From positions 806,001 through 870,000 of the forward strand of contig NZ_JAVDDX010000002.1 in the NCBI RefSeq assembly GCF_030848575.1: DNA of 64,000 bases. Reading direction: 5' to 3'. The notes under the pieces are model-generated. The model searched no databases. It was not told where the DNA came from and saw only the letters and a program-made list of their open reading frames with translations. Positions 22,068 to 29,488 of this stretch are shown here, piece by piece (positions within the stretch are counted from its first letter, which is position 1; each line of letters begins with the position of its first letter). This stretch comes from Haloarcula sp. H-GB4 (lineage in GTDB: Archaea > Halobacteriota > Halobacteria > Halobacteriales > Haloarculaceae). The position numbers were made by a program, and so were the translations under genes.

Positions 22068-22308
22068 CTCTTGTATCTCACGCTGTTTCTACTCTTGAAT
22101 ATTCCCCTTAGCGTATCATATTTGATAATAATATCCCATTTTCCCGGCACGGATACGGTAAATTAACGATCCAAGTACTAGCCAATTACATTTCATATTA
22201 ATTTCGGACGGAAAGCCAGGGAACAGAGTGTGGCAGTGCGGCCCCGGCAGACGAACGGCTGTCGCCCGTCTGACGCCAGATGTCAGACACAATTACGGCT
22301 CGCAGACA
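22068..22308 (-). promoter_or_regulatory. AT-rich promoter region of the arlCE-J operon
   Basis: The 241-bp gap between cheD and arlCE contains, from about 22090 to 22205, a strongly AT-rich segment (TATTATTATCAAATATGATA and related words on the minus strand) that stands out against the surrounding high-GC sequence. Candidate TATA boxes precede arlCE by about 40-70 bp. This suggests the arl operon has its own promoter and is not only read through from cheY-cheC-cheD. No hairpin or palindrome was found here that would mark an operator. Confidence 0.5.
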
Positions 22309-22830
22309 TCACAGTGTTATCGAATCCGTGTTCGCGCTTTTGACAATGAAATTGCCAGTGTCCGCTTCGAGTTTGACGGACCGACCGTGGTCACCGCCTA
22401 GGTCTTCGCCGACAACGGGAACGCCGTGTTCATCCAGCGTCTCGCGCACCTTCTTGGCGTTGCGCGAACCGATAGAGGAGCCGTTCTCGGAGAAGTCGAG
22501 CATATCGCTCCCGCCAGCGATTTTGGCTTCCATGGCCTCCGTTGACGCCCCGACATCTGCCATGGCCTCGATGAGCGCTTCGATGCCCGTGTCCGCGAAC
22601 TTCGCATGGTTGCCGCCGTCGATATCAGCCGCCGACGGAAGCATGACATGGACGAGTCCGGCCACCGTGTTCCGAGTGTCGTATATCGCGATCCCGATAC
22701 AGGAGCCCAGCCCGCTTGTGGTTAGCATGGCCGGCTCTGTGGTTACCTTGTACTCCGCGATGCCGACTTTGATACGCTCGGGCGTGCTTTGTTCGGGACT
22801 CTCCGTTTGGCTACCATCGTATACTTTCAT
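22309..22830 (-). CDS. cheD: Chemoreceptor glutamine deamidase CheD
   Basis: A 173-residue CheD that deamidates receptor glutamines and binds CheC. The catalytic Cys44 is in LGSCIGIAIYD, His61 is in LVHVMLP, and a GNHAKFADTGIE segment supports the family call. The ATG overlaps the cheC stop by one base (TAATG), so cheY-cheC-cheD are translated as a unit. About 20 residues at the N terminus are haloarchaea-specific. The arlCE gene follows only after an AT-rich spacer. Confidence 0.95.
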   Translation of the reverse strand: MKVYDGSQTESPEQSTPERIKVGIAEYKVTTEPAMLTTSGLGSCIGIAIYDTRNTVAGLVHVMLPSAADIDGGNHAKFADTGIEALIEAMADVGASTEAMEAKIAGGSDMLDFSENGSSIGSRNAKKVRETLDEHGVPVVGEDLGGDHGRSVKLEADTGNFIVKSANTDSITL

Positions 22831-24047
22831 TATTTGAAGATCTGTTCCACATCCGCGCCCGTCTCGGTCGCTCGCTCGACATCGAGGTCATTGAGAGCGG
22901 CGCGCAACTCTTTCTCGTTGGGCAAGGCGTGAATCTCAGCCTGGAACTCGATGTCGTCGGTCTGCATCTGGGAGTCGATGATAAACGCGTGCTCCTGATA
23001 CTGTCCGACCTGCGCCGCAAGCGGGTCCATGATTGCCCGTCCCATGTCGTGGACGACCCGCGGCGGCGTGTGTTCGACTGACGTCTGGAGAACGTTTGCC
23101 CAGCCATCGACGAACCCGCTCGTCATGATGTTCCCCAGTTCCTCGATGGCGGCCTTGTGCTGGTCGGTGAGCTCGTCGCTGTCCATCTCGATGGGCATCA
23201 TCGCCTCCGCGACGTTGATTGCCGAGACCTCGTCGAACAGCACCATAAGGTAGCCACTGGGCGTCCCAGTGAACTCGACGACCGTCCCGACGAACGTGTC
23301 CGTGCCGATCTGCTTTGGCACGTCCTCAATGGGAGCAAAGCTGATCTGTGTCACCTCCGATTCCGTCGGGATGCCGGTCATCATCTCGACGTTATCAGCG
23401 GCTTTCTGGGTGCCACTGGTCGTCATCTCGTTGAACGTCTGGAGCTTGTCGATGGGGATCGCATCGCCGTCCGTGTCGACGTGCTCTACCATCATCTCCG
23501 TGAGTGATTCATACTCAGGGAGCATGTAGATGTAGAAATTCACCGATTCGTCAATCCATTCGATCTCGGATTTGAACACGAACACCTGCTGGTGGTCGCC
23601 GTTCTCAGGCGCATCTGGGAGCACGTCGCTCCCGGATTCTTCGATATACTCCGGCGGTGAATGGTCGATGGTCGCGCCAACATAATCGGCCCAGCCGTCG
23701 ATGAACCCGCTCATCATGATGTTGCCGATTTCCTCGATACCGCTTCTGGCCATCGCCTCGTCGTCGCTGCTACCGGGCATCATCTCCTCAGTGATCGTTC
23801 CGGCGCTGTCCACATCGAAGGCAAGAACGGTATCGCCCTCCAGAACGCCATCGAAAGAGAACTGGACGCCGACGAAGTCACGACCGGCCAGTTCCTCGCC
23901 GACATCTGCTCTGTCAAGCAGCGTGATCTTGGTTACGTCGACGACGGCATCGATGCCCGTCATCTGGCCCATCGACTGCGTGGCCTGTTCAGCCCCCTCG
24001 TGAGCGAGTTGGTTGAATGTGCCCAGCGACTGAATATCGACGTTCAT
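22830..24047 (-). CDS. cheC: CheC-type CheY-phosphatase, two CheC domains
   Basis: A 405-residue protein made of two CheC modules in tandem (about 1-200 and 205-405). Each carries a recognisable phosphatase motif; in the first it is SGIEEIGN (S102, E106, N109) with P132 at the expected spacing, and in the second AAIEELGNIMTSGFVDGWAN. CheC dephosphorylates CheY-P and binds CheD. Fused double modules are known in haloarchaea, where they replace separate CheC copies. Its start is directly next to the cheY stop, and it overlaps cheD by one base. Confidence 0.94.
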   Translation of the reverse strand: MNVDIQSLGTFNQLAHEGAEQATQSMGQMTGIDAVVDVTKITLLDRADVGEELAGRDFVGVQFSFDGVLEGDTVLAFDVDSAGTITEEMMPGSSDDEAMARSGIEEIGNIMMSGFIDGWADYVGATIDHSPPEYIEESGSDVLPDAPENGDHQQVFVFKSEIEWIDESVNFYIYMLPEYESLTEMMVEHVDTDGDAIPIDKLQTFNEMTTSGTQKAADNVEMMTGIPTESEVTQISFAPIEDVPKQIGTDTFVGTVVEFTGTPSGYLMVLFDEVSAINVAEAMMPIEMDSDELTDQHKAAIEELGNIMTSGFVDGWANVLQTSVEHTPPRVVHDMGRAIMDPLAAQVGQYQEHAFIIDSQMQTDDIEFQAEIHALPNEKELRAALNDLDVERATETGADVEQIFK

Positions 24048-24407
24048 CTATGAGGGAACGACGTCCTCGATAGCCTCCATCACACTGGGTTTCTGGAACG
24101 GCTTGGTGATGTACCCGTCAGCCCCCGCTTTCACGGCCTCTTTCATCTTCTCCTCCTGGCCGACGCTTGTACACATGATGACGTTGGCATCGGGATTGGA
24201 AGATTTGATTTCGTCCGTGGCCTCGATGCCATCCCGGATGGGCATCACGATATCCATCATGACCAGGTCTGGCCCTTCTTCTTTGAACACTTCGACAGCT
24301 TCGACTCCGTTCTCGACCTCCCCAACAATCTCGTGGTCTTCTTCGAGAATCTCGCGGAGGAGGTTACGCATAAACTCTGAATCGTCGGCGATCAGTACGT
24401 CTGGCAT
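24048..24407 (-). CDS. cheY: Chemotaxis response regulator CheY
   Basis: A 119-residue single receiver domain with the full active site: acidic D8 and D9 (IADDS), phosphoacceptor D52 (MDIVMP), T80 and K102 (TKPF). The start is the ATG of MPDVLIADDSEF; the longer upstream reading shows no receiver-like sequence. Phosphorylated CheY acts through CheF proteins on the archaellum switch. Its stop abuts the cheC start, giving cheY-cheC-cheD. A short AT-rich spacer separates it from the upstream GT-C-like gene. Confidence 0.96.
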   Translation of the reverse strand: MPDVLIADDSEFMRNLLREILEEDHEIVGEVENGVEAVEVFKEEGPDLVMMDIVMPIRDGIEATDEIKSSNPDANVIMCTSVGQEEKMKEAVKAGADGYITKPFQKPSVMEAIEDVVPS

Positions 24408-24492: not shown

Positions 24493-26559
24493 TTACACCG
24501 CAGGGAGATACGGTGTGAGAACGCGAATGAAATCGAGCGCGAAGGGGCCATACTGGAAGTACACGAGCCCCGAGAGGAGAAGGTACGCTGTCGTCAGCCC
24601 CGCCGGGAGTGCGAGGCCAAGCGTGACCATCCTAGACGGGACGCGGTCAGGAACGACTGTGCGGCCTAGTACAGTCCCGCCACAGACTGCTGCCCCACCG
24701 AGATTGAGGAGAGCATGGAACTGTACTGCCTCCCCAAGCGCCAGATCAAGTCCGGCAACGACGCCGAGTCCAAGGAGGAGACCACCAATTGTGCTCACAG
24801 CGTACCCGCCGGCAAGCCACCGCTTCGCATCGCTGACGGTTTCGTGGACGGCCGGAATCCGAACGACGCCGTACATAATAAGTGGGACCGTCGGCAGCAG
24901 ATACCGAACCGTAAGCTGTGTGTGGAGTGGTAAGCGACTCAGATAGACAAGCGTGAACGCAGCTGCCAGGGCTGTGACGAGAATATCAGTCTGTGTTCGA
25001 GGCGAATACTGCGACGGGCGGACACTCCATTGCCGTAGTCGCTGAGTAGCTGACCGGACCAAGACCACAGGAAGTGCCGCGACCGCGCCGAAAACCGGGA
25101 CGGCCTCGACCATCGTAAGTTCGATTGCCTCATAGGAATTAGGAGCATAGTTGATCCGTGGCGCGGAGCCGCTCCGCAAGAATATCTGGAACATTCGCTC
25201 CGGCGTAGTCAGGACGCCGAGACCGCGACTGACCGCATCCGAGACAAATTCTATTGCGGGTGCCGCAGGTCCCATGACCCGTTCGAACAGGCCGAGAAGC
25301 GGTGTTACAATCGGCGTTCCGGTATCACCGCCCGTCCCTGTGGAGTCACTACCACCGGTCCCGCCAGCACTTCCATCGGACCCCCCGCCAGTACCCCCAT
25401 CCGTTCCAGCACCCTCAGTGCCGCCAGCGCCACTACCCCCATCCGCTCCAGCGCCCTCAGTGCCGCCAGTGCCGCTACCGCCACCCGTTCCGGCATCGCC
25501 GCCGGTATCGGGTGTGAATTCGACGTTCGCACCACCAACGGCGGAGAGCAACCGCGGCGGTTTGACCGGGTTGCCAGAGATAAGGAAATTCGTCACGAGC
25601 ATCGGGAGCGACCCGAGGAAGAGCGCGAGGGCGACAACGGCCAGATGGACGAGCGAGTTGCGTCTTGCAGTGACAAGGTCCACGAGGGTCAGTATCACCA
25701 CCAGGAAGAACCCCTCGAAGGCATGGGTCCAGGTTACCAGCCCAGCAGTGATATACGCGCCAGCGCGAAAGCCGAGCCCGAGTCGGTGTCTGGAGTCGGC
25801 ATACGCAAGTCGGCTCCGAGCGAACAGGTACACCGTCGTCAGTAGCAACAACCCCACCAGAACGTGCCGTTTCGGAAGCGAAGCCCAGAATCCGACAGAT
25901 GAGGCGATACCGATTGCAACACCGGCCGCCAGAGCGACCGAGCGGTCGTGCCAGATGCTGACGAGGCGGTAGAGAACGACACTGGTCGTCGCCGCTGCAA
26001 GCATCGTCGAGATCTGGAATGCGGCTATTGGGATCGCGGTGTCCGGAAGGGCTGTCGCTGTCAGCGAACCAACCAGAAACAGGACGGCGACGAGGCCGCT
26101 ACCGACCCACAGAACCGTACGCCTAGCGGTATCGGTGTGGCGCTGTCCGAGCACGCTAACGTGAGACACAAAGACGAGTGCAGTGCCCGACCAGAGTCCA
26201 AGGAGCAATAGCCGGGGAGTGATGAGCACGGACAGCGCCTGAAGGGCCCAAACCAGCGGGACAGCCAGCAGGATCTGTCCGTAGTTTCGCCCGTACAGTC
26301 TGCCGCCGGACTCGTGCAGGCCCGGTTGGGCGCCGAGTGTCAGAGTGTACGGCGTCTCTGTGATGTGGAGGTGCCCGTTCGAGACAGCGACAAGCGCGTT
26401 GGCAGTTGTGTACGTGTCGGTGATGAAAATGCCAACGCGCCAGTAGAGCCCAAACGTAACGAGCAGGCCGAGCCAGAGAACATAGCCGTAGCGGTCACCG
26501 AACACAGCCGTTCCGACCTGTCGACACCGGCCCGTGAACCACTCGATGTCTCGAGTCAT
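24493..26559 (-). CDS. GT-C-like polytopic membrane protein with Gly-rich insertion
   Basis: A 688-residue protein with 10 or more predicted membrane helices. The segment after the first helix (ITDTYTTANALVAVSNGHL, about residues 47-65) recalls the first extracytoplasmic loop of GT-C glycosyltransferases of the PMT type. Residues 352-415 are a Gly/Ser/Thr/Asp low-complexity insertion (nt 25315-25506) with a repeated GAGGTEGAG unit, between a membrane helix and the C-terminal half. Its start overlaps the secreted-protein gene by 4 bases (ATGA). A glycosyltransferase role for the archaellum or surface is inference from topology and position; no characterised homologue is recognised. Confidence 0.7.
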   Translation of the reverse strand: MTRDIEWFTGRCRQVGTAVFGDRYGYVLWLGLLVTFGLYWRVGIFITDTYTTANALVAVSNGHLHITETPYTLTLGAQPGLHESGGRLYGRNYGQILLAVPLVWALQALSVLITPRLLLLGLWSGTALVFVSHVSVLGQRHTDTARRTVLWVGSGLVAVLFLVGSLTATALPDTAIPIAAFQISTMLAAATTSVVLYRLVSIWHDRSVALAAGVAIGIASSVGFWASLPKRHVLVGLLLLTTVYLFARSRLAYADSRHRLGLGFRAGAYITAGLVTWTHAFEGFFLVVILTLVDLVTARRNSLVHLAVVALALFLGSLPMLVTNFLISGNPVKPPRLLSAVGGANVEFTPDTGGDAGTGGGSGTGGTEGAGADGGSGAGGTEGAGTDGGTGGGSDGSAGGTGGSDSTGTGGDTGTPIVTPLLGLFERVMGPAAPAIEFVSDAVSRGLGVLTTPERMFQIFLRSGSAPRINYAPNSYEAIELTMVEAVPVFGAVAALPVVLVRSATQRLRQWSVRPSQYSPRTQTDILVTALAAAFTLVYLSRLPLHTQLTVRYLLPTVPLIMYGVVRIPAVHETVSDAKRWLAGGYAVSTIGGLLLGLGVVAGLDLALGEAVQFHALLNLGGAAVCGGTVLGRTVVPDRVPSRMVTLGLALPAGLTTAYLLLSGLVYFQYGPFALDFIRVLTPYLPAV

Positions 26560-27038
26560 CGCTCCACCTGCACTGTGACGTTTTCAGCAACGATTGTCTC
26601 GGAAGTTTCAAAGCTCTGGACCCGAAGCAGGACGGTTCCCCTGTACGCGTCTCGCTCCAGTGACGACCATCGTACCGCTCTGTCGCCCGGTGCGAGTCGA
26701 TATGTTCCGGACTGGCCGTCCGAAAGGACCTGCTCGTCTTCGCGGGAGATATCGAGCGCAGGGACCGCGACCTGATACAGCAGCCTCGGGCGGCCCGTGA
26801 CAGAGTCGACGGTCACGCTGGCATCCGGGACTCGGAGATATGCAACGTTCGTGCCGAACCGGCCGTTCGTGATCCGTATCTCTGATGTCGGTAGTTGTAC
26901 GGAACTGATAGCCGCCGTTCCGTCACCGATAGTCGTCGGCTGTGTCCTGACAGCGTCGACGCCGACGAGCGGTCCCGTCACGACGAGCGTTACCAGAATC
27001 AGCAGGGCGACAACCCTCGGCGGCTGGCGCGGGACCAT
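26556..27038 (-). CDS. Secreted or membrane-anchored haloarchaeal protein
   Basis: A 160-residue protein with an N-terminal signal-like helix (about residues 8-27, VVALLILVTLVVTGPLVGV) and a beta-rich extracytoplasmic domain. There is no Tat motif, no lipobox and no transmembrane segment at the C terminus. It is translationally coupled to the GT-C-like gene by a 4-base overlap, so the two products probably act together at the membrane. I do not recognise the family; conserved blocks such as EIRITNGRFGTNVAYLRVPD could be used for a search. Confidence 0.7.
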   Translation of the reverse strand: MVPRQPPRVVALLILVTLVVTGPLVGVDAVRTQPTTIGDGTAAISSVQLPTSEIRITNGRFGTNVAYLRVPDASVTVDSVTGRPRLLYQVAVPALDISREDEQVLSDGQSGTYRLAPGDRAVRWSSLERDAYRGTVLLRVQSFETSETIVAENVTVQVER

Positions 27039-27166
27039 TATCTACCCTACACACTGCTGTCCCCGGATTTAAATCCCTCGTCGGTTATACAGGCTGCTGT
27101 TCCTGTTCACCGCGACGGCTACCCGAGTGCAGATAGTTGTTGCGCCAATGACGGCAACGGTCCGTC

Positions 27167-27742
27167 TCAGAGTTCAGCACCGTCGGCGTCTTCGACGGCC
27201 TGTAAGAGGTCAGCGATGGAATCATCCGGTGTCAGTTGCGTCGACCGGACGAGCTGTTTGATGACCCCTGGCGGGTAGCGAACTGGCACGTTCGACTCCG
27301 ACAGCAGAATACCCAGCACTTCTTCGACCGGTGTCGACCCATCCATCTGGCGACCGTACCAGAGCATGAAGCTCTCGAAAACGGTGACGATATCATTGGA
27401 GGCGAGCTGTTGCTGGTCGACGTCGCCGTCGAACTTCGCGGTCACGTCGAAGCCGTATCTGGCGTTGGAGTCGGCCATCTGTTCAGCAAGCCACTCGTGG
27501 ACGTTCGCATCGGAGAACTCAGGAGCTGACGGCTCCGGATCTGGTGCAGGAGACGGCGGGGATTCAGACGCCGAATCCGATGAAACGTGGTTCCCGTAGG
27601 AGTCGTCAGTGCGGACATCCGACGAAACGACATAACGACCCTCGTCGATTTCAGTAACGTGCTCGTCGTCGGCAATATCGAGCTCTTCAGGCGAGAGTAC
27701 CTTGCCCTCTTCTGGATTCGGTTCGTCTGACCGCCGAGCCAT
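27167..27742 (-). CDS. Conserved archaellum-cluster protein of unknown function
   Basis: A 191-residue soluble protein with three parts: an N-terminal acidic region containing EEGKVLSPEELDIADDEHV, which looks conserved, a Pro/Ser-rich disordered linker (about 60-90), and a C-terminal helical domain (about 90-185, VHEWLAEQMADSNARYGFDV onward). I recall similar proteins only from haloarchaeal archaellum clusters. It has no membrane segment and no recognised enzymatic motif. It lies between the secreted protein gene and the archaellin genes on the same strand. Confidence 0.65.
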   Translation of the reverse strand: MARRSDEPNPEEGKVLSPEELDIADDEHVTEIDEGRYVVSSDVRTDDSYGNHVSSDSASESPPSPAPDPEPSAPEFSDANVHEWLAEQMADSNARYGFDVTAKFDGDVDQQQLASNDIVTVFESFMLWYGRQMDGSTPVEEVLGILLSESNVPVRYPPGVIKQLVRSTQLTPDDSIADLLQAVEDADGAEL

Positions 27743-27831: not shown

Positions 27832-28458
27832 TTAGAGGCTGACTGCGGAGTTACCAGACAGAGTCTCCGGGACGACCAGCCGAGCGGTCGTCGTGCCACC
27901 GGATTGGGTGTTCAGGCGAACCGTCGCCGTCTCACCCTCGCCGAGACCGTCACCGTCGCCGCTTCCGCGGATCTGTTCAGCGCTGAAGATGATCGTCGCA
28001 CGGTCGGACGGGTCGTTCAGAACTTGGCTCCCTGAAATCGAGTCGTCGTCGTCCTGAACATCATTGACAGCGAAGGAGGACCCGTCGGGGTTTGGCGTAT
28101 TACTGTATCCAGCCGAGGTGAGGTCGTACGAGCCAGTAGAGTCAACCCATTGAGCGATCGTACTACCGATGTCGATGTTCCCTGCACCGGGTGCCTTCTT
28201 GACGGTTAGCTTGACCGTGTTGATCGTGCTGCTGGATGATTGGATGTCTTCACCGACGGCGTTGACGAGCTGCAGTCGGTTCGTCACTTGGTCACTGCTC
28301 TGTTGTCCGGTTTCCTCTGCACTGCTCTGGAGGAAGCCGGCCGTGTTGATCAGGACGCCCGCAGCAATCGCCGCCACCAGCACCATCGCGATGAACACGA
28401 TCAGGGTGCCGATACCGACCTGCCCGCGGTCGTCGTCGTTCGTTAGTTCCGTTAGCAT
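27832..28458 (-). CDS. flgA: Archaellin A (second of the tandem pair)
   Basis: A 208-residue archaellin. The start is [17 protein letters not shown]; the prepilin peptidase site lies between Gly12 and Gln13, followed by the hydrophobic assembly helix (about 13-40) common to archaellins. The C-terminal half is a soluble beta domain ending SGNSAVSL. No N-x-S/T sequon is present in the whole protein. It is nearly identical to the upstream copy except in the middle (about 110-175). It has its own promoter region, which repeats that of the other copy. Confidence 0.95.
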
Positions 28459-28540
28459 TGTTGATCCGGGTCTGTCTGACCCTATCAGTTGACTCTTTTC
28501 ACTGGTAATAATACCTCCTCTCAAATTATGCGATTTGATA
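28456..28540 (-). promoter_or_regulatory. Duplicated promoter and leader of archaellin A
   Basis: An 85-bp segment ending at the archaellin A start codon is strongly similar to 29404-29488 at archaellin B. It contains, on the minus strand, TATCAAATCGCATAATTTG (TATA-like), GAGGAGGTATTATTACC with a Shine-Dalgarno-like GGAGG about 55 bp before the ATG, and a 5-bp hairpin GGGTC-AGACA-GACCC (28468-28482) just before the ATG. Similarity to the second copy stops beyond the AT-rich box. Confidence 0.7.
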
Positions 28541-28782
28541 ACCGAATATCTAGTGGTTGTAAACAACAGCCTCAGAGATCGAGGACAGTATCTATCCGAA
28601 AATAGACGCAGCGCTGAATTCTATCTCTGAGAGCAGTAGTCAACGAACAATGAGTATCGTAAGTCGCAGATGACTGTGTGTGCCGGAGTCAGTATTGCGT
28701 CGCAGGCTATCCGGTGAAAAGTGCGCAGAAGGCAGAATAAGCTATGCGTATGGCAGCAATTGAAACTGAAAGATATGACGTC
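28541..28782. other. Spacer between the archaellin genes, no gene seen
   Basis: About 240 bases between the archaellin A promoter block and the archaellin B stop hold no plausible coding frame. The sequence is moderately AT-rich and has no clear palindrome or T-run terminator. It is not similar to the sequence upstream of archaellin B, showing the duplicated unit ends at the promoter block. Confidence 0.35.
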
Positions 28783-29406
28783 TTAGAGGCTGACTGCGGA
28801 GTTACCAGACAGAGTCTCCGGGACGACTAGCCGAGCGGTCGTCGTGCCACCGGACTGCGTGTTCAGGCGAACCGTCGCCGTCTCACCCTCACCGAGGCCG
28901 TCATCAGCAGCGCCACCGCGGATCTGTTCAGCGCTAAAGATGATCACCGCGCGGTCAGACGGGTCGTTCAGGACCTGGCTGCCTGAAATCGATCCGTCAT
29001 CATCCTGGATATCAGCGACGGAGAACTCGCTTGAGCCTGGGTTACCGTCGTAGGTTCCTTCGTAGGTGAGGTCGTACGAGCCACTGGAGTCGACCCACTG
29101 GGCGATTGTACTGCCGATATCGATGTTCCCCGCACCGGGTGCCTTCTTGACGGTTAGCTTGACCGTGTCGATCGTGCTGCTGGACGATCGAATGTCTTCA
29201 CCGACGGCGTTGACGAGCTGCAGTCGGTTCGTCACTTGGTCACTGCTCTGTTGTCCGGTTTCCTCTGCACTGCTCTGGAGGAACCCAGCCGTGTTGATCA
29301 GGACGCCCGCAGCGATCGCCGCCACCAGCACCATCGCGATGAACACGATCAGGGTGCCGATACCGACCTGCCCGCGGTCGTCGTCGTTCGTTAGTTCCGT
29401 TAGCAT
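28783..29406 (-). CDS. flgA: Archaellin B (first of the tandem pair)
   Basis: A 207-residue archaellin that is a near copy of the 27832-28458 gene. The start is [17 protein letters not shown] with the same prepilin peptidase site and assembly helix. The variable region (about 110-170, [20 protein letters not shown]) differs from its twin, while the last 35 residues are identical. No N-x-S/T sequon is found. The pair looks like a tandem duplication with sequence homogenisation at both ends. Its leader carries the same hairpin and GGAGG block as the other copy. Confidence 0.95.
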
Positions 29407-29488
29407 TGTTAATCCGGGTCTGTCTGACCCTATGCAACCGTTCTTTTCGCCAGTAATAATACCTCCCCCCAAATTATGCTACTTGATA
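29404..29488 (-). promoter_or_regulatory. Duplicated promoter and leader of archaellin B
   Basis: This block is colinear and of equal length with the one at 28456-28540. It has the same hairpin (GGGTC-AGACA-GACCC, 29416-29430), the GGAGG motif (29462-29466 on the plus strand as CCTCC) with TATTATTAC beside it, and the TATA-like GCATAATTTG. The differences lie mainly in the spacer between hairpin and GGAGG. Confidence 0.7.

Follow-up and report, generated by a model that had tools for sequence, protein, structure and literature searches.

The window analysed here is a stretch of 64,000 nucleotides from Haloarcula sp. H-GB4 (contig NZ_JAVDDX010000002.1, positions 806,001 to 870,000 of the forward strand), whose closest named relatives include H. 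japonica and H. argentinensis. Between its archaellin genes and cheY lie three minus-strand genes (24493-27742), as an earlier note on this DNA had stated; all three open reading frames (ORFs) are confirmed. We refer to the products of the first two as MP (membrane protein) and SP (secreted protein), and propose that MP is a putative glycosyltransferase of filament subunits. The genes, with the length of each product in amino acids (aa), are:

24493..26559, minus strand, ORF: MP, a 688-aa multi-pass membrane protein of GT-C fold, putative filament glycosyltransferase
26556..27038, minus strand, ORF: SP, its 160-aa exported partner; overlaps MP by 4 bases
27167..27742, minus strand: DUF7500 (PF24332, Pfam E 2.4e-65), 191 aa, a widespread archaellum/chemotaxis-cluster gene
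27832..28566, minus strand: archaellin, proposed substrate (PF01917, E 2.9e-36), with no N-glycosylation sequon in its outer domain; the ORF as listed begins upstream of the real start
28783..29472, minus strand: archaellin, proposed substrate (PF01917, E 2.6e-37), with no N-glycosylation sequon in its outer domain
24048..24407, minus strand: cheY, downstream boundary of the MP/SP pair (PF00072, E 3.2e-31); the product starts at the ATG at 24407

The surroundings are a standard haloarchaeal arl/che cluster: arlJ, arlI, arlH, arlG, arlF, arlCE, cheC and cheY occupy one flank of the three genes, and the archaellins, a KaiC-like gene, cheW, cheB, cheA, cheR, a gene for a HEAT-repeat protein and two cheF genes occupy the other.

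The GT-C-like character that the earlier note had read from the topology of MP is borne out by a structural model. The AlphaFold model, derived from 74 family members (predicted local distance difference test score, pLDDT, 87.5; predicted template modelling score, pTM, 0.88), was compared by VIA with ALG12 (Z 19.1, root-mean-square deviation (rmsd) 3.9, 349 residues aligned), ArnT (Z 19.0, rmsd 5.3, 390 aligned), yeast oligosaccharyltransferase (OST; Z 18.3, rmsd 5.4, 352 aligned), the archaeal AglB (3waj; Z 17.1, rmsd 4.0, 341 aligned) and Pmt1-Pmt2 (Z 15.9, rmsd 4.2, 365 aligned). GT-C enzymes fill all 42 top rows of this comparison, from Z 19.1 down to 10.8, and the next row, at 7.8, is unrelated; Foldseek likewise ranks ArnT, OST and PMT first, with weak E-values (best 3.9e-3). 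On the strength of this model we consider the assignment of MP to the GT-C fold to be firm. Sequence families are less informative: neither MP nor SP matches any Pfam or NCBIfam family at E <=1, Arl models included, so that no known archaellum component fits either protein, and at the same threshold MP matches neither archaeo_STT3 (TIGR04154) in the NCBIfam scan nor PMT_2 (PF13231), whose family cut-off it does not reach. PMT_2 does match 20 of the 74 family members at E <=0.5 (best E 1.9e-5), and a distant relative (L293) passes the PMT_2 cut-off with 32.9 against 26.1 bits. Profile searches of solved structures with MP and SP returned chance-level or weak matches; PADLOC returned none for the three proteins, and tblastn with MP returned none in plasmids and phages.

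Invariant residues in the 74-row alignment of MP include D48, W225, R231, H232, D294, N324, R462, R552 and Q613. The acidic D48, in the first outer loop, is kept in all 74 aligned members and in all 16 distant ones; those 16, which lie outside the order, also all keep W225, K230, H232, W277, P319, N324 and R552. When transmembrane segments are assigned by eye, the model places D48, K230, H232, W277 and E282 on its outer side. From haloarchaea to methanogens, this pattern of conservation in the alignments is what would be expected of an enzyme. Residues 345-412 (window 25324-25527) form a Gly-rich, low-complexity outer loop that is predicted to be disordered (pLDDT mostly 40-54); the same interval is also open as an antisense ORF.

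SP and MP are joined by the sequence ATGA, in which the stop codon of SP (TGA) overlaps the start codon of MP (ATG). The pairing was followed in a sample of 98 MP genes from 98 loci of the order Halobacteriales, where at least 98 such genes occur among the matches listed; at least three further places (G083:C69, G215:C6 near 2.96 Mb and G125:C1) lie outside the sample. A strong SP match stands directly upstream of MP in 90 of the 98, and the exact 4-base overlap recurs in 73 of these 90, so the overlap is not a matter of chance; among the remaining genes the SP match is weak in two (that at L057 being spurious) and absent from six. MP and SP are thus firmly established as a strict pair, in keeping with the joint action that the earlier note had suspected from the overlap. 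Export of the partner is also supported: the model of SP (pLDDT 85.6) consists of a single N-terminal hydrophobic helix followed by a beta-sandwich. We assigned SP to no family by its fold, since its top matches are scattered over unrelated beta-sandwiches: Foldseek ranks an archaeal fusexin domain first (E 2.9e-4), and the highest VIA score, Z 9.1, goes to CD109 (rmsd 2.7, 97 aligned) amid many other such folds. SP itself has sequons above expectation (175 against 52.8 in 88 proteins), a count in which related sequences enter many times.

The third gene is a neighbour and not a partner. The 191-aa protein matches DUF7500 with 220.6 bits against a Pfam cut-off of 27, and therefore belongs to an already described family of unknown function that stands outside the pair; the earlier view of three undescribed genes holds for MP and SP, but not for this one. 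Of 293 Halobacteriales genomes sampled evenly, 217 contain DUF7500, 215 contain the archaellum marker PF04659 and at least 60 contain MP. We rejected the idea of a trio acting together because DUF7500 is far commoner than MP and is kept where the pair is absent. It lies within 8 kb of arl or che genes at all 40 places opened in genomes without an arl-cluster MP, and adjoins cheY in all 12 same-family arl clusters that lack the pair (L193-L204). DUF7500 turned up in no paper in our literature search. A separate feature of these clusters is an ORF of 185 aa (window 22280-22837, plus strand) that lies between arlCE and cheC, runs against them and has no Pfam match; similar ORFs stand at the same place in most arl loci, and they may be a gene missed by annotation or a shadow cast by the beginning of adjacent genes.

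What MP genes do have beside them, at most loci, is a filament subunit. Of the 98, 28 lie in arl clusters with archaellins, 40 lie within 5 kb of a Pilin_N pilin and 30 do neither, which gives an archaellin or pilin within 5 kb for 68; chance alone would put only about 3 of 98 beside a pilin, on an estimate that takes 10 Pilin_N genes in a 4.19-Mb genome. Even among the 30, the MP genes at L057 and L083 begin 71 and 51 bases downstream of TafE-matching proteins (which score under the NCBIfam TafE cut-off, with E 5e-30 and 4e-34, and also match the solved pilin 9p0a, with E 7.3e-17 and 1.5e-13), weak pilin matches stand upstream of MP at L076 and L086, and other neighbours are found at the remaining loci. 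Four genomes of the window's genus (L085, L088, L089 and L094) hold a further MP/SP pair beside cheF of the che cluster, with no subunit within 5 kb. The window genome itself has a second pair (G000, C1:464-467 kb), whose MP2 is 40% identical to MP over residues 17-366 and which lies directly beside two Pilin_N pilins. Near this pilin paralogue we considered a three-component dolichol-sugar system of MP2, a GT2 protein and GtrA, and do not rely on it, since 4 of 16 genomes that lack a pilin-type MP also have GT2-GtrA close to that hpt gene (L267, L268, L270 and L274). Between two pilins at this nuo-hpt locus stands a DUF7344 gene (L004:7798-8400, minus strand) that is conserved in many genomes and could be a pilin regulator.

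The second pair, together with the 70 of 98 relatives that lie outside arl clusters, removes the archaellum specificity implied by the earlier note. In a formal sense the family does occur freely away from arl clusters, which that note had named as a finding that would count against its proposal; however, most of the remaining members stand next to subunits of other filaments, and the arl-cluster members form one clade in a tree built from all 98 MPs (a quick tree with long branches), with a support of 98 in the Shimodaira-Hasegawa-like approximate likelihood ratio test (SH-aLRT) and with 28 of the clade's 31 rows being arl loci. On the same tree, placement beside a pilin changes 10 times, at least 6 of them on supported branches. 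We consider the link of MP and SP to filament subunits to be strong.

The pair behaves as an accessory cassette that is gained and lost together with the archaellin type. On a CheY-CheC tree of 52 clusters, presence of the pair changes 8 times, at least 5 of these on supported branches, clusters with SP only being scored as present. Three genomes (G098, G137 and G212) have SP but no MP in the arl cluster, and in them an MP of the arl clade is found elsewhere without SP (L102-L104, L208-L210); in G250, SP is in the arl cluster and no arl-type MP was found among the matches listed. Haloarcula has two exchangeable archaellin types, and in the genomes without the pair (G157, G198 and G230) an archaellin of 442-462 aa replaces the type of about 190 aa:

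L193:4978-6468, long archaellin of a pair-free Haloarcula arl cluster
L194:9526-10956, long archaellin of a pair-free Haloarcula arl cluster
L195:4785-6248, long archaellin of a pair-free Haloarcula arl cluster

Over 65 N-terminal residues the G157 protein (L193) shares 82% identity with the window archaellin; it is closely related to the solved structures 9v95 and 9v96.

We also counted N-X-S/T sequons, the targets of AglB, with expected numbers taken from composition. In the outer domains of 40 archaellins from 27 genomes with the pair, 15 are seen against 86.4 expected; the four genomes with SP only (6 archaellins) have none against 10.0, whereas 27 genomes without the pair (60 archaellins) have 168 against 142.3. 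Shuffling gives nearly the same expectations (means of 87.0, 10.2 and 143.1, respectively). Within genus g5, an archaellin has on average 0.67 sequons where the pair is present and 4.67 where it is absent; the corresponding means are 0.5 and 3.83 in g7, 0 and 1.1 in g3, and 0.46 and 0.5 in g1. These counts leave out L115, L205, L206 and L227, whose archaellins were not parsed, and the che-only loci L220-L223, L226 and L230; the MP-free Haloarcula rows include a spurious antisense ORF, and full-length archaellins were counted separately. Pilins follow the same direction: the 71 within 5 kb of MP have 34 sequons against 92.2 expected, and the 26 away from MP have 50 against 35.9 (as controls: of 30 loci fetched, 28 lay away from MP, and a motif was found in 26 of these). 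AglB is present in all 18 genomes checked, with and without the pair; that of the window genome is a separate gene (G000, C1:904721-907342).

Relatives of MP extend beyond the haloarchaea. They occur in 23 genomes of a phylum-wide sample of 294, of which 14 lie outside the order. Six of these 14 stand with archaellins or arl genes (L294, L295, L296, L298 and L299) or with a pilin (L293). Seven, the f18 loci, belong to one genus, and no filament gene lies near them; six have a GT4-type gene as immediate neighbour (that of L286, when tested, matched Pfam Glycos_transf_1), and no ORF was found at the seventh, L290. The relative at L297 also has no filament gene nearby. Among 17 methanogen-group genomes chosen for archaellins like those of Methanospirillum hungatei and their kin, 11 places were found, and 10 of the 11 adjoin archaellin, arl or pilin genes. 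One of these genomes, G681, agrees with the M. hungatei archaellum (5tfy chain) at 100% identity over a fragment of 84 residues and would by this match be M. hungatei; its single MP relative, of 607 aa (L321:9490-11313), lies 1.4 kb downstream of the 5tfy-matching archaellin and matches MP weakly, mainly in the first half (E 2.3e-17 in a search of the ORFs from the loci retrieved). In the Methanospirillum group, one genome has a second GT-C relative (L325:6431-8667, minus strand) that lies 17 bases downstream of a Pilin_N pilin, and so repeats the archaellin/pilin duality of Haloarcula.

The 24 archaellins beside methanogen GT-C genes have 7 sequons against 22.2 expected, and the two M. hungatei archaellins parsed have none. 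Within genus g105, the genome with a GT-C gene (G330) has 1 and 0 sequons, and three genomes in which no GT-C gene was detected (G313, G453 and G387) have 23 in 8 archaellins; in the draft genomes of L307 and L309, of the Methanospirillum group and with no GT-C gene detected, the archaellins are also without a sequon. A feature of several of these loci is a protein of 313-353 aa whose gene, of reverse orientation, separates the archaellin gene from the GT-C gene (L321:8462-9415, which carries TPR repeats, with counterparts in L322, L324, L326 and L327); it is possibly a local counterpart of SP.

Bearing these results in mind, we favour, with somewhat more than even confidence, the interpretation that MP is a dolichol-phosphate-sugar-dependent glycosyltransferase specific for filament subunits, which works with an exported helper and probably makes glycans that are not N-linked; the earlier suggestion of a role in archaellin or surface modification thus stands as the best explanation. 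MP would be dedicated to the subunits encoded beside it, here the two archaellins, which are likely to be glycosylated by it: at the outer face of the membrane it would take a sugar from a dolichol-phosphate carrier and attach this sugar to the archaellin after export, either ahead of filament assembly or in the course of it. The catalytic acid/base may be Asp48 of the first outer loop, Lys230, His232 and Arg552 may handle the lipid phosphate, and SP could either present the subunit or hold MP at the assembly site. A linkage other than the N-glycosylation of AglB is probable because the neighbouring archaellins are almost without sequons although AglB is present. Linkage to the oxygen of Ser or Thr is a good bet, since sequons are absent and the M. 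hungatei archaellum is reported to carry O-linked glycans in the portion of PMC11607397 available to us.

A wider proposal, which we advance tentatively and as a possibility somewhat short of an even chance, is that MP represents the missing archaeal O-glycosyltransferase of surface filaments: an ancient GT-C family, common to haloarchaea and Methanospirillum-type methanogens, of which each member is dedicated to the adjoining archaellin, pilin or fimbrial subunit. Archaellin cassettes would then be exchangeable among three kinds, namely those decorated by AglB (many sequons, no MP), those decorated by MP/SP (short and sequon-free) and long, sequon-free ones without either. No GT-C or O-glycosyltransferase of archaeal filaments surfaced among the papers listed by a literature search aimed at such enzymes.

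Several observations weigh against a filament-specific glycosyltransferase. Of the 98 MP relatives, 30 have no archaellin or pilin within 5 kb (two of them have Taf-type subunits and two have weak pilin matches directly upstream), and the counts of loci are not independent because the genes share ancestry. Shared ancestry also inflates the sequon depletion ratios: the contrast comprises only 5 independent pairs on supported branches, of which an average of 2.9 agree with expectation, 0.0 run counter to it and 2.1 are without difference (median p 0.25), and so is not significant after phylogenetic pairing. In the same clusters the cytosolic ArlH (2 against 21.9 expected), DUF7500 (5 against 21.2) and CheC (13 against 30.5) also fall below expectation, so that a depletion ratio alone proves little; ArlG (26 against 27.5) and ArlF (50 against 44.0) are not depleted. 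Sequon-free archaellins occur in four genomes without the pair (G051, G067, G112 and G259), and in the three pair-free Haloarcula genomes the full-length copy of the long archaellin has no sequon. The SP partner was not found in the methanogen loci. Finally, GT-C enzymes modify lipids and polysaccharides too. We accordingly treat the sequon link as supporting and not as decisive.

The last of these points underlies an alternative that we regard as unlikely though worth serious attention: MP would build or trim another surface glycan (a lipid-linked oligosaccharide, an exopolysaccharide, an S-layer glycan or a glycolipid) and would lie near filament genes for reasons of regulation. Its best structural matches do include ALG12, which acts on lipid-linked oligosaccharide, and ArnT, which acts on lipid A, beside protein-modifying enzymes, several family members lie away from subunit genes, and a GT4-type gene adjoins six of the seven f18 loci, yet the repeated association with subunits of three filament classes, the archaellins or pilin beside the relatives in Methanospirillum-type genomes and the exchange of MP/SP together with the archaellin type in Haloarcula speak against this explanation. 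An improbable alternative is that MP and SP form a non-enzymatic module for assembly or anchoring; such filament accessory proteins do occur beside pilin genes, for example TfpY in the accessible text of PMC11841053, and SP is a plain beta-sandwich, but MP has a full GT-C fold and polar residues that are invariant from haloarchaea to methanogens.

That MP adds a peripheral sugar to N-glycans made by AglB seems to us very improbable. GT-C enzymes exist in N-glycan pathways (the ALG family) and AglB is present in all 18 genomes checked; however, the archaellins and pilins beside MP are so poor in sequons that there would be little N-glycan to decorate. The least credible explanation is that the neighbourhood was inherited without functional message and that MP and SP are ordinary genes of unrelated function. 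The arl-cluster MPs form one clade, and a single event could therefore explain their shared position; in its favour, too, the sequon link is not significant when tested against phylogeny. Against this, placement beside pilins and presence of the pair in arl clusters have each changed repeatedly on supported branches, and the same neighbours recur in methanogens.

The filament-glycosyltransferase interpretation has a parallel in the TfpO, TfpW and TfpY cassettes of Pseudomonas aeruginosa, in which, as far as the available text of PMC11841053 describes them, a glycosyltransferase or accessory gene lies directly beside the subunit that it serves and the type of cassette goes with the type of subunit. 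MP is likened to TfpO and TfpW by gene arrangement and not by sequence kinship; MP/SP differs in serving, as we propose, archaeal filaments, and in having a secreted beta-sandwich partner whose gene overlaps that of the enzyme. With the PMT/ArnT/ALG branch MP shares the fold (VIA Z 19-16), the Asp of the first outer loop, predicted outward-facing conserved residues and, through some family members, weak PMT_2 matches; it is set apart by having no such match itself, by the Gly-rich outer loop and by its filament-gene neighbourhood. Filament proteins are also substrates of AglB, which has the GT-C fold in common with MP; unlike AglB, MP does not match archaeo_STT3 and lies beside archaellins without the sequons that AglB targets, AglB itself being encoded separately.

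MP can be put to the test as a candidate for the enzyme behind the non-asparagine sugars of archaeal filaments: Haloarcula and its relatives offer a defined gene, a predicted active site and, encoded alongside, a proposed substrate. Shortened archaellin N-glycans lead to bundling of filaments and impaired swimming in Halobacterium, according to the part of PMC11239922 available to us, and a replacement coat is therefore a plausible need of sequon-free archaellins, one that glycans added by MP could meet. In bacteria, pilin-specific glycosylation cassettes protect against pilus-binding phages (PMC11841053, in the text available); if our interpretation is true, the bacterial idea of such cassettes would extend to archaea.

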